From: Prevotella sp. tc2-28
GTDB lineage: Bacteria > Bacteroidota > Bacteroidia > Bacteroidales > Bacteroidaceae
Direction of reading: 5' to 3'
Length of the DNA: 64,000 nt
NCBI RefSeq assembly: GCF_900107705.1
Contig: NZ_FNRE01000002.1
Location: 186,001-250,000 of the forward strand
Each line of letters begins with the position of its first letter. The first letter of the stretch is position 1. The notes below the pieces were generated by a model. The model ran no database searches, had not been told where the DNA came from, and saw only the letters and a program-made list of their open reading frames with translations. Shown piece after piece: positions 10,365 to 13,165 of the stretch. A program made the translations under genes and the position numbers.

Positions 10365-11297
10365 TTATAGTTCCACAGCGGGCCAGCCATTATCCTGATA
10401 GAAGCGGATGTTGAGGCCATGCTGTTTGATATACCATTGCAGTTGTTCCTTGCGGGCTGCCTCACGAACGTCTTGGTTGCTATTCATGTTTTGGAAAACA
10501 TCATAATGCTTGCCGAAGATACGCTTACCACTGGCCTCATTCCCTGAACCATCGACAGTTTGTTCGAAAGCAGTCACTACGGAGTTCCCGTCTTTCTGTA
10601 GAACAGTCATACAGCCGGCATGATTGCCACCTGACACCGTCTTCAGCGTATCGCCTTCGATGTTGTACCAATATACCCAGGAGTCACACCATACTCGGGT
10701 TTCATTACCCTGTTCCTCTTCAGCTACAATCAGCAGCGTAGGAATGCATAGCTGTCCCTGCAGATAGTGAGCGCCAATCTCCTTCACCAGATAGCCGCTC
10801 ATGGCATCACGCAAGGTCTGCTCCTTGCGATTGATGGCAATATGGCGGATGCAATCTTTCTTATGGTCGTCAAAATCTGATATCAGCCACTCGCCGTCCA
10901 CCTTTTCCATGTACAGCTTGTGTTCCTCAACATCGCTGTTCTCGTCGAACGAGCCATCCTCCCATTTCTGGCGAACCTTAATCGTCGCTACGGCATGAGT
11001 ATCATCAGTCTGTTCAACACCAGCCACCTCAAAGTCGGCTATTGTGCCGCCATTGCCTGTCACGAAGTAATACAACCACTCATGATCCATGGCCTCCTGT
11101 TCGGGCAGGTGGTTGAACATGGTGTCCAACACCGCATAGAAGTCGGTAGTCATAAACGGCTTCGACTCAGCTTTTAACTCATGGTCGGGAATATACTTAC
11201 ACAACTCTGCAGCGCGTTCTTTCAGCTGCTGTTCCTTATTTCCACAGGCGGCCAATAATAAAGCTGCCAGAATGATTGTAACTATTTGCTTTATCAT
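10365..11297 (-). CDS. Uncharacterised lipoprotein
   Basis: A 310-residue protein with a lipoprotein signal (LAAC, Cys18). Next come a helical part (KERAAELCKYIPDHEL), a mixed alpha/beta domain around residues 60-150 with Trp and Asp/Glu clusters (NTF2-like shape possible) and a C-terminal beta-rich domain ending in FYQDNGWPAVEL. It is anchored in the envelope. It lies 14 bases downstream of the sigma-macrodomain gene and is probably co-transcribed with it. No named family was recognised. Confidence 0.7.
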   Translation of the reverse strand: MIKQIVTIILAALLLAACGNKEQQLKERAAELCKYIPDHELKAESKPFMTTDFYAVLDTMFNHLPEQEAMDHEWLYYFVTGNGGTIADFEVAGVEQTDDTHAVATIKVRQKWEDGSFDENSDVEEHKLYMEKVDGEWLISDFDDHKKDCIRHIAINRKEQTLRDAMSGYLVKEIGAHYLQGQLCIPTLLIVAEEEQGNETRVWCDSWVYWYNIEGDTLKTVSGGNHAGCMTVLQKDGNSVVTAFEQTVDGSGNEASGKRIFGKHYDVFQNMNSNQDVREAARKEQLQWYIKQHGLNIRFYQDNGWPAVEL

Positions 11298-11311
11298 ATA
11301 TCAACTTTATA

Positions 11312-12385
11312 TTACCATCCCTCCGGCAACACGATATTCTCTACCTCGTGTGCACCTTCGAACAACGGAGCAATCTCTTCGTCGGTAAAGCCTGCGATGC
11401 CACAACCGATGCGGGTCACGAGGAAAGTCAGTTCCGGATGCTCCTTGGCGAACTGGATAAACTCATCCACATACGGACGGATGGTTTCTACCCCACCCTG
11501 CATCGTCGGGATGCCGTAGCTCTGCCCCTGCAGTCCTACGCCCTGCCCCATGATAGCTCCAAACTTGCGGTAGGCGATATAAGCCGCTCCGCCGCCATGC
11601 ATTCCCTTCAGGTTGCTGCCGAATACGAAAATCTCGTTAGGCTGCAGTTCTGTAATAAATTCTGGTGTTGTACGTTTCTGTTCCATAACCGATTCTTTGA
11701 ATAGGTTTATCATCGACTTTGTCATGCTGCCCGTTCCGAGAGAAGGAGCCTCCATAACCTCTGCAAAAACCATTCCACGCTCGTCCATGACCTCTGGCAT
11801 ATCCAAGTCCATATCGAAGTTCTTCTTGAAATAAGGAATGATGATTCGTTCCTTCAACTTATTATATTTCTGCGATACAGCTGATGGTGTCATACCCAGT
11901 TCTGCAGCAATCTCCTTACCTTTGAAGCCCTTCAACAGCATCATGGTAATAAGCCATCTCTCCTCCCTGTCCAATGATGCATGGTCGCAGATATCCTCCA
12001 CCATCCGGTTGAACTGCAGCCGCAGGTCACTCGTTACGTCGAACGAGCGCAGATAGTCTTCAAAGGTAATGCTGCCATACTCCTTCTTGTACCATTTCAG
12101 CGCGTCGAGCACCACATATCTGAAACCATTGATAAGCCAAGTGCGTAGACTCAAGTTGGGCGAGTGATCCTCCAATGGTTTCCAGTCGTGCTCCATCAGA
12201 TAAAGCGCATACTGGTGAGCCAGTGACATAAAGTCCAGGTTCTCCTTCTCGCGCAATTGGTACCGTTGGTCAAAGATGTTATACCCCACTCGACAGTACC
12301 CGTAGAAATATTCGCGGATAATGTCTGCGTCGCCCTCACGGAACCCGTCTAGAATCTCTTTGTCTGACAGTTGCTGATAGTACAT
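11312..12385 (-). CDS. Sigma-70-like factor fused to a macrodomain-like module
   Basis: A 357-residue two-part protein. Residues 1-185 resemble an ECF/sigma-70 factor: an N-terminal SDKEILDGFREGDADIIREY helix pair like region 2, and a region-4 helix-turn-helix at about 155-180 (KGKEIAAELGMTPSAVSQKY). Residues 240-357 match the phage A1S_2505/macrodomain-like family, with FGSNLKGMHGGGAA (255-268) as the nucleotide-binding loop and TRIGCGIAGF (324-333). The linker (190-240) is acidic. The fusion suggests transcription tied to ADP-ribose or a related nucleotide (inference). It is divergent from a vWA protein across 84 bases. A truncated copy of its 3' end lies at 14706. Confidence 0.8.
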   Translation of the reverse strand: MYYQQLSDKEILDGFREGDADIIREYFYGYCRVGYNIFDQRYQLREKENLDFMSLAHQYALYLMEHDWKPLEDHSPNLSLRTWLINGFRYVVLDALKWYKKEYGSITFEDYLRSFDVTSDLRLQFNRMVEDICDHASLDREERWLITMMLLKGFKGKEIAAELGMTPSAVSQKYNKLKERIIIPYFKKNFDMDLDMPEVMDERGMVFAEVMEAPSLGTGSMTKSMINLFKESVMEQKRTTPEFITELQPNEIFVFGSNLKGMHGGGAAYIAYRKFGAIMGQGVGLQGQSYGIPTMQGGVETIRPYVDEFIQFAKEHPELTFLVTRIGCGIAGFTDEEIAPLFEGAHEVENIVLPEGW

Positions 12386-12401
12386 ATACGATTATTTTCT
12401 G

Positions 12402-12409
12402 CAAAAATA
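12402..12409 (-). promoter_or_regulatory. -7 element of the sigma-macrodomain gene
   Basis: TATTTTTG on the minus strand, 16 bases before the ATG at 12385, so the leader would be very short. The 12386-12469 gap between the divergent genes is very A+T-rich. Confidence 0.4.
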
Positions 12410-12469
12410 CAAAATATTTTTTCTACTTGCTTAATTTTTCTGCAAATTCTTCTTTAAAGAGATAAAGAC

Positions 12470-13165
12470 ATGTCTAAAAAGAAGTTTCAAACAATTAAAA
12501 ACATGACCATTATGAAAACAATGATGCAAGACCCACTGCCCACCAAGCGTGTTCACAACCTGATTATCGTCGATGAAAGCGGTTCCATGGAAGTTATCCA
12601 TAAACAAGCCTTCACCGGTATGAACGAAACCCTGCAAACCGTTCGACAGCTGCAGAAGAAATACCCTGATCATACACAACTCGTCACCCTCCTCACCTTT
12701 GACAGCGGTCACACCACCTGGCACTACGATAATGCTTCGGCTCTGAAGACCAGAGGCCTCAGTTGGAGAGCCTATAACCCCTGTGGCGGAACCCCTCTCT
12801 ATGATTCCATCGGTAAAGGTATCTCCAAAGTCAATGCCCAGATAGAAGAAGACGACCATGTACTTGTTACCATCATCACTGACGGCGAGGAGAACAGCAG
12901 CGAAGAATGGACGCTGAAGATGGTTCGCACGATGATTGAGAAGCTGAAGAAACAAGGTTGGACCTTTACCCTCATCGGTACCGACAACCTCGATGTAGAA
13001 TCTATGGCTCATTCCTTTGCCATTGATGAGCACCTGGAGTTCCAACAGGACGAGGAAGGCACTAAGGCTATGTTTGCCCGTGAGCGCCACAGTCGTGTAC
13101 GCTTTAACTGCTGTTTGGCTGAGGGAGCTCCGATGGATAAAGGCTCATTCTTTAAAGAAGACTAA
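12470..13165 (+). CDS. von Willebrand factor A-domain protein (TerY-like)
   Basis: A 231-residue cytoplasmic vWA protein. A complete MIDAS metal site is visible: DESGS (Asp35, Ser37, Ser39), Thr108 in CGGTPLYD and Asp138 in ITDGEE. The whole chain is one vWA fold plus a short tail ending GSFFKED. Such stand-alone vWA proteins (TerY, YegL) act as Mg-dependent scaffolds in stress and nucleotide-linked signalling systems. It is transcribed away from the sigma-macrodomain gene, implying common control. A 13-bp hairpin terminator follows. The first ATG was used; internal ATGs at codons 12 and 15 are alternatives. Confidence 0.85.
   Translation: MSKKKFQTIKNMTIMKTMMQDPLPTKRVHNLIIVDESGSMEVIHKQAFTGMNETLQTVRQLQKKYPDHTQLVTLLTFDSGHTTWHYDNASALKTRGLSWRAYNPCGGTPLYDSIGKGISKVNAQIEEDDHVLVTIITDGEENSSEEWTLKMVRTMIEKLKKQGWTFTLIGTDNLDVESMAHSFAIDEHLEFQQDEEGTKAMFARERHSRVRFNCCLAEGAPMDKGSFFKED

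Follow-up and report, generated by a model that had tools for sequence, protein, structure and literature searches.

A predicted sigma factor-macrodomain fusion paired divergently with a von Willebrand factor A protein in Prevotella and other Bacteroidales

Introduction

Gene clusters that link ADP-ribose chemistry to von Willebrand factor A (vWA) proteins, and sigma factors with sensory C-terminal extensions, have both been described in bacteria. Here a locus of Prevotella sp. tc2-28 is compared with them. It lies in a window of 64,000 nucleotides (the whole stretch of DNA that was analysed, positions 186,001 to 250,000 of contig NZ_FNRE01000002.1), in which a minus-strand open reading frame (ORF) at 11312-12385, encoding 357 aa, stands opposite a plus-strand ORF at 12470-13165, encoding 231 aa. 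The first protein joins a predicted, divergent sigma factor of the extracytoplasmic function (ECF) type to a macrodomain, and the second is a stand-alone vWA protein.

Systems centred on ADP-ribosylglycohydrolase (ARG) are treated in section 3.8 of Iyer, Burroughs, Anantharaman and Aravind (2022; PMC9503650), where this enzyme is combined with a Nudix or WYL regulator, a vWA protein and a macro or NADAR domain, and where the vWA protein is interpreted as a peptide-binding chaperone. The available parts of that paper name lineages including actinobacteria, planctomycetes and proteobacteria, give the ligand of the regulator NrtR as one of the ADP-ribose class, and do not contain the word sigma. 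Sensory C-terminal extensions of ECF sigma factors are reviewed in PMC8999054, in the available part of which the terms 'macro' and 'ADP-ribose' are absent. A sigma-macrodomain fusion was not found described in the accessible portions of the open-licence literature, nor in those of PMC11125620, PMC8195603 and PMC7824862. The initial annotation of the locus, made from the sequence alone, knew of no system of this form; within the extent of these texts this holds for the sigma fusion, but vWA/macro systems of the ARG type are described (PMC9503650).

The locus is interpreted here as encoding an ADP-ribose-responsive, probably autoregulated ECF-like sigma factor that would serve an ADP-ribose-processing module with a vWA adaptor, an interpretation to which we give about an even chance. 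It is the best supported reading because of the predicted fold, the gene context and the apparent replacement of a regulator.

Results

The fusion and the vWA gene are conserved as a pair

Relatives were collected by a scan of 84,980 species genomes seeded with peptides of the sigma half, from which the best 80 of 122 were kept, and five were added from viral contigs. Both halves lie in one ORF in all 85 loci (84 distinct proteins), a count that applies to loci picked by sigma-half peptides. The vWA gene is the immediate divergent neighbour in 74 of the 85 loci, and it is divergent in 76 of the 82 loci with upstream sequence when a small spurious ORF in between is allowed, or in 53/55 after dereplication. 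Adjacency across relatives had been set beforehand as a test, and the pair is not confined to this genome. The exceptions are L119, L124 and L166, which show no vWA gene near the fusion, L126, which shows none either but is on a contig that stops right past the fusion gene, L120, where the vWA gene lies 7.7 kb off, and L132, where it is convergent.

The relatives are titled Prevotella, Prevotellaceae, Bacteroidaceae or other Bacteroidales and are largely rumen and gut metagenome-assembled genomes, and isolates with the fusion include Prevotella ruminicola KHT3 and Xylanibacter brevis ATCC 19188. Among the closest 60 genomes six carry the fusion; the vWA gene is divergent in G000, G019, G028 and G035 and convergent in G020, and in G033 the sigma N-terminus is apparently disrupted and the contig ends. 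Three of the 85 loci (L132, L130 and L138) are the same as those of G020, G035 and G028, respectively. The median ratio of non-synonymous to synonymous substitution rates (dN/dS) was 0.069 for the sigma half, 0.052 for the macrodomain, 0.33 for the linker and 0.086 for the vWA protein (46/85, 73/85, 37/85 and 51 usable pairs, respectively, after pairs with saturated or unusable dS were dropped). Both halves are under strong coding constraint, and the linker is less constrained. The fusion and the vWA gene form a real, conserved two-gene unit, which is probably functional.

The C-terminal half belongs to the A1S_2505 macrodomain family

The C-terminal half comprises residues 236-357 (11315-11680, minus strand). 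Residues 252-357 match NCBIfam NF049995 (A1S_2505) with an E-value of 7.9e-45 and 151.6 bits, compared with a cut-off of 45, and the half also matches phrog_2072 (E 5e-36); a Pfam scan matched no family on it, PF01661 included. Comparison of the predicted structure by VIA-align, with rows within 1 Z treated as tied, identified the Venezuelan equine encephalitis virus macrodomain with ADP-ribose (3gqo; Z 12.1, root-mean-square deviation 2.7, 121 residues), TARG1 (Z 12.1) and DarG (Z 11.7), and the aligned lengths at Z 12.1 were 121-126 residues. The residues of the FVFGSN and GCGIAGF motifs are invariant and those of GGG are kept in 82 to 86 of the 86 fusion sequences, and the identical macrodomain residues are invariant in the fusions and in stand-alone viral relatives. 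In macrodomains, loops of this kind bind ADP-ribose.

The halves are connected by a variable linker of low confidence (residues 191-235; 11681-11815, minus strand), in which the predicted local distance difference test (pLDDT) score is below 50 at residues 195-219 and 225-230. The linker ends near Met234 (11684-11686, minus strand), a possible internal start that corresponds to the start codon of stand-alone relatives, and a Met is found there in 78 of the 86 sequences though the linker is variable. For Prevotella sp. E2-28 (L371 7988-9103, NZ_CP091789.1) the annotation, from a gene table that is incomplete by its own description, holds only a macrodomain of 124 aa starting at the internal Met that corresponds to Met234, and the ORF of 371 aa is open. 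In this strain a Sir2 gene is located past the vWA gene. The fusion protein is matched by 442 phage records, and among the 40 listed all except MT839816.1 match the macrodomain half only. This 4-kb faecal 'Bacteriophage sp.' record is 44% identical to fusion residues 4-281 and may encode a sigma-macrodomain fusion that is more distantly related. Tandem macrodomain-macrodomain genes of the A1S_2505 family were also observed (L078 5023-5850, G103:C18 and G301:C29).

Alternatively, the macrodomain could be a working ADP-ribosyl hydrolase, maybe with a separate product from Met234, in which case the sigma half would only couple its production to transcription, without gating by ADP-ribose. The invariant residues shared with stand-alone viral relatives, the retention of Met234, the E2-28 annotation of the short form only and the separate macrodomain-lipoprotein cassette of G253 (see below) are all consistent with such an enzyme. 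However, the invariable fusion of the halves, among loci picked by sigma-half peptides, would not be needed for a merely co-expressed enzyme, and Met234 could be a mere relic of the fusion event. We regard this alternative as unlikely.

The vWA protein carries a complete metal-binding site

The vWA gene is conserved from position 12512 and extends to 13165 on the plus strand. Its product scores 24.2 bits with PF00092 (cut-off 23.8) and matches phrog_7371 (E 3.6e-31). As initially annotated, the metal ion-dependent adhesion site (MIDAS; DxSxS...T...D) is complete: D35, S39, T108 and D138 are invariant and S37 is kept in at least 90% of 62 vWA sequences. Structural matches of the predicted model (pLDDT 93.2) include integrin I domains (Z 19.6) and a vWA domain of TFIIH (Z 18.8), and integrin I domains and TFIIH vWA domains bind proteins. 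An analogy with TerY and the Ter systems turned out to be weak, with a score of 14.2 bits for PF10138 (TerF vWA), under the cut-off of 29.4, and no ter family among the eight neighbour ORFs scanned (window 6.8-18.5 kb).

When 75 intergenic regions were aligned (those of 74 loci and of the window), the vWA ATG common to the relatives fell at window position 12512, where the vWA gene probably starts. The two ORFs and their divergent layout stand as first described, but the gap of 84 bases probably does not, as the conserved start gives 126 bp (12386-12511). When gaps were counted from ORF-finder start codons, 126 bp was the commonest single value (9/76) and 44/76 gaps measured 110-135 bp.

The near-strict divergent pairing (76/82), the single vWA-macrodomain polypeptides found elsewhere (see below), which hint at physical contact, and the match to protein-binding vWA domains would also suit a vWA protein that regulates the sigma factor directly, as an anti-sigma factor or activating partner, with the macrodomain mainly docking the vWA protein. 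Yet vWA-macrodomain fusions exist without this sigma factor, and four loci (L119, L124, L166 and L126, the last on a contig that ends just past the gene) showed no vWA gene close to the fusion. Direct regulation of this kind seems improbable to us.

The N-terminal half resembles ECF sigma factors

Sequence profiles gave mixed scores for the N-terminal half (residues 1-190; 11816-12385, minus strand). Residues 136-176 pass the Pfam cut-off for Sigma70_r4_2 (27.9 bits, cut-off 25.7), residues 68-181 match TIGR02937 (sigma70-ECF; E 1e-7, 31.7 bits) under the cut-off of 42.9, and no Pfam region-2 match (Sigma70_r2) was found in residues 1-185. Searching PDB sequences with a profile of the whole fusion resulted in seven matches, all to region 4 and all MarR-type or similar transcriptional regulators (best E 7e-4). 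The AlphaFold model of the fusion (87 sequences) has a mean pLDDT of 81.7 and a predicted template modelling (pTM) score of 0.50, and the free, low-confidence linker is probably behind the low pTM. With this model, Foldseek against the PDB gave E. coli SigE (1or7) as top match (E 9.7e-4, probability 1.00) and sole match with E of 0.001 or less, and the next ranks were mostly ECF sigma factors (E 0.0025 to 0.02), above macrodomains. SigE, SigL, SigH, SigW and AlgU are in the top ranks, and the predicted model comprises sigma2 followed by sigma4, without sigma3. A profile of the sigma half had matches in 31 of 295 Bacteroidales genomes, at 7e-119 in the window genome and at 5e-9 or weaker in the remaining 30, and all five of the matches from these 30 that were checked pass the TIGR02937 cut-off.

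Because the profile scores are mixed, the predicted fold is that of ECF sigma factors and the profile of this half finds ECF sigma factors, it is named a divergent ECF-like sigma factor. A significant sigma-factor match was thus obtained for the N-terminal half (Sigma70_r4_2 and SigE), and the proposed fusion of a sigma-like and a macrodomain-like half is borne out by Sigma70_r4_2, the ECF sigma factors in Foldseek, NF049995 and the macrodomain fold. A weak CARF label for the fusion protein (PADLOC, E 0.024) was disregarded. That this half is instead a degenerate module for DNA binding, a region-4 helix-turn-helix that represses or activates without contacting RNA polymerase, could account for the Pfam match to region 4 only, the missing region 2, the TIGR02937 score under the cut-off and the MarR-type matches, but is very improbable given the sigma2 and sigma4 helices of the model, the ECF sigma factors placed first by Foldseek over ~180 columns, the relative L372, which is also without Pfam region 2 and yet passes TIGR02937, and the low median dN/dS across the entire sigma half.

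The divergent genes share a conserved intergenic region

The intergenic region contains a conserved block of 38 bp (12429-12466), which reads TTTATCTCTTTAAAGA...AAAAATTAAGC on the minus strand and is still found upstream of the vWA gene in L120 and L132, two loci that no longer have the divergent arrangement. The fusion gene is preceded by a promoter-like element, AAAATTAAGC-N19-TAnnTTTG (12402-12438, minus strand), and a related element, A(TT or TG)AAG-N-(18 to 20)-TAnnTTnG, was identified upstream of the fusion gene in 66 of the 75 intergenic regions. No second copy of it was seen that could serve as vWA promoter. With the element ahead of the fusion gene in 66/75 regions but other targets wanting (see Discussion), autoregulation is plausible and a wider regulon is unproven. 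The element or a weaker match also occurs ahead of unrelated genes in L132 and L113.

Macrodomain and vWA genes occur with ADP-ribose-processing genes

Among the 295 Bacteroidales genomes, a strong vWA match was found in 29 and the macrodomain in 48, and both were found in 14 compared with 4.7 expected (hypergeometric p 1.9e-5, uncorrected for relatedness; 14 vs 5.7 when six genomes with weaker vWA matches are included). Both genes lie together in 7 of these 14 genomes: in G038, G155, G236 and G246 they share one ORF, in G053 they are adjacent, in G146 they are separated by 0.85 kb and in G000 they diverge. The single-ORF genes of G038 and G155 are flanked by Nudix and ARG genes, that of G236 by Nudix only and that of G246 by ARG only, and the Nudix proteins of G038, G053 and G155 consist of NUDIX and NrtR_WHD by Pfam. 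Elsewhere the A1S_2505-family macrodomain is fused to ADP_ribosyl_GH, DUF1810, microbial PARG (PARG_cat_microb) or NUDIX. A nucleotide-linked context had been suggested for the locus, and in relatives this context is indeed one of ADP-ribose, with the macrodomain family fused to or beside ARG, Nudix (several of the NrtR type), microbial PARG and sirtuin genes.

Within eight genes of the sigma fusion, Nudix genes were found in 15/85 loci and ARG genes in 11/85, with all other families in at most 7 of 85; sirtuin genes occur in 5/85. In G033 the fusion is followed by ARG, SIR2 and NUDIX genes. The NrtR winged helix was undetected in all 21 Nudix proteins of sigma-fusion loci, which share ancestry and include one locus twice (L043 and L130) and two short ORFs, and was detected in 6/8 Nudix proteins from other loci. 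Because the Nudix proteins of sigma-fusion loci come without a detectable NrtR DNA-binding domain, the sigma-macrodomain fusion may replace the NrtR regulator.

Further combinations were observed. The sole ARG match of the window genome (L357 1501-3667, C24; PF03747) lies near a phage-like protein whose C-terminus looks ADP-ribosyltransferase-like by eye. Long proteins in L055 (3571-6087; domains by Pfam) and L088 (12893-15430; domains by eye) have two ARG domains flanking a DSP-type phosphatase domain, and both adjoin a vWA or macrodomain gene. On viral contigs, the vWA and macrodomain families lie 1.4-7.1 kb apart in L226, L299, L355 and L356 and in one ORF in L213. In three other Bacteroidales a second protein that looks sigma-like by eye is encoded beside the vWA gene or one gene off (L051 6021-6653, L077 3298-4272, L089 4593-5708). 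It has no Pfam sigma match, an hhalign probability of 6.7% and a weak NCBIfam region-4 match in one of the three, and its profile matches 7/295 genomes, three of them the source genomes; this candidate gene is a lead only.

The adjacent lipoprotein gene appears to have a separate history

A lipoprotein gene (10365-11297, minus strand) lies 14 bp downstream of the fusion gene and had been proposed as the output of the switch. This role was rejected, as the 85 sigma-fusion loci contain no recognised relative of the lipoprotein. The only relative in any of the protein sets analysed is in G253, a member of another family, where a stand-alone macrodomain (92% identical) is followed by the lipoprotein (72% identical). 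The G253 cassette (L091 4501-5874) aligns with window positions 10393-11688 at 71.5% nucleotide identity and ends at the Met234 point. Because this alignment stops at the stand-alone start near Met234, the macrodomain-lipoprotein cassette and the sigma-vWA unit look to have been inherited separately here.

Discussion

The interpretation as an ADP-ribose-responsive sigma factor implies the following model. The fusion would be a cytoplasmic one-component ECF-like sigma factor with its C-terminal macrodomain as sensor. The macrodomain would bind ADP-ribose or an ADP-ribosylated compound, which could be free ADP-ribose, O-acyl-ADP-ribose made by sirtuins or ADP-ribosylated macromolecules, and the ligand would alter the engagement of RNA polymerase by sigma2 and sigma4, similar to proposals for ECF sigma factors with ligand-binding C-terminal extensions. 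The sigma factor would transcribe its own gene, the divergent vWA gene or both. The vWA protein would be a working partner of the macrodomain, probably a metal-dependent adaptor for binding an ADP-ribosylated target or holding the sigma factor. In this arrangement the fusion would occupy the place of the NrtR-type Nudix regulator that elsewhere in Bacteroidales accompanies the macrodomain-vWA pair and ARG, and the task of the module could be to detect and clear ADP-ribosylation caused by phage or other transferases or by endogenous NAD+ use. A more specific version, in which the ligand sets promoter choice and the macrodomain-gated sigma factor and the vWA protein form a self-contained switch that has replaced NrtR in Prevotella and turns on the clearance of ADP-ribosylation, possibly phage-made, is put forward tentatively, as possible rather than probable.

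Several observations weigh against an ADP-ribose-responsive sigma factor. In the window genome, ARG, sirtuin and Nudix genes are on other contigs or ~60 kb off. After dereplication, Nudix genes remain in 4/56 loci and ARG genes in 3/56, with unrelated families reaching up to 5, so ADP-ribose neighbours are not commoner. A phylum-wide link between vWA and macrodomain was not seen: among 306 genomes with 24 vWA and 4 macrodomain matches both were found in the window genome only. No convincing regulon targets of the promoter-like element beyond its own locus were found in the 60 genomes or among the ADP-ribose genes of the loci. In the 60 genomes the strict element had 6 matches, compared with 3 for a reversed control, and found 2/6 fusion loci (G000 and G028); this test is insensitive, missing four of the six fusion loci. 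The element is absent from 11/12 operon-leading ADP-ribose genes in sigma-fusion loci, and its single occurrence, ahead of a macrodomain-ARG-sirtuin operon in L123, seems to have been copied from the 5' end of the fusion gene itself. Moreover, the TAnnTTTG part of the element resembles the housekeeping Bacteroides promoter, so that the fusion protein may not be what reads this promoter. The missing Pfam region 2 and the MarR-type profile matches of the fusion count on the same side.

If the model is true, it would connect ADP-ribose chemistry directly to RNA polymerase in bacteria that are common in the rumen and gut. The simple unit of two genes with a shared promoter region makes ligand sensing by the macrodomain open to reporter assays, and it gives a macrodomain family rich in phage members, as well as stand-alone vWA proteins, a function that can be put to the test. 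At least one public annotation (E2-28) has the macrodomain part only, from an internal Met, so other fusions of this kind may be incompletely annotated.

Among phage macrodomains, the A1S_2505 or N4 gp14-like proteins (NF049995, phrog_2072) belong to the same family as the C-terminal half, but in the listed phages they are small and without a sigma half, whereas here the domain is fused to one. Compared with NrtR, a ligand of the ADP-ribose class is here likewise proposed to control expression, and NrtR-type genes adjoin the vWA-macro pair in other Bacteroidales; NrtR, however, is a repressor with a Nudix sensor, and the protein described here would be a sigma factor with a macrodomain sensor. 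ECF sigma factors with C-terminal extensions, as presented in the available part of PMC8999054, share the order of sigma2, sigma4 and then a C-terminal domain to which the sensing of a small molecule or partner is ascribed, but the extension in this case is a macrodomain. The locus resembles the ARG-centred systems, as far as the accessible text of PMC9503650 describes them, in having vWA and macro genes, which there are accessory genes, and in the linkage of vWA and macrodomain to ARG, Nudix and phosphatase genes in relatives. It differs in that ARG is not linked to the pair in the window genome and is present in 13/85 sigma-fusion loci, that no Nudix-HTH regulator was identified, the winged helix being undetected in 21/21 Nudix proteins of sigma-fusion loci, and that the core is a divergent pair of two genes, often without linked ARG, near which sirtuin genes can be found. 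Relative to the ARG-centred systems in those parts of PMC9503650, where the regulator is a Nudix-HTH protein or a WYL repressor, the new element is the sigma-macrodomain fusion as putative regulator.

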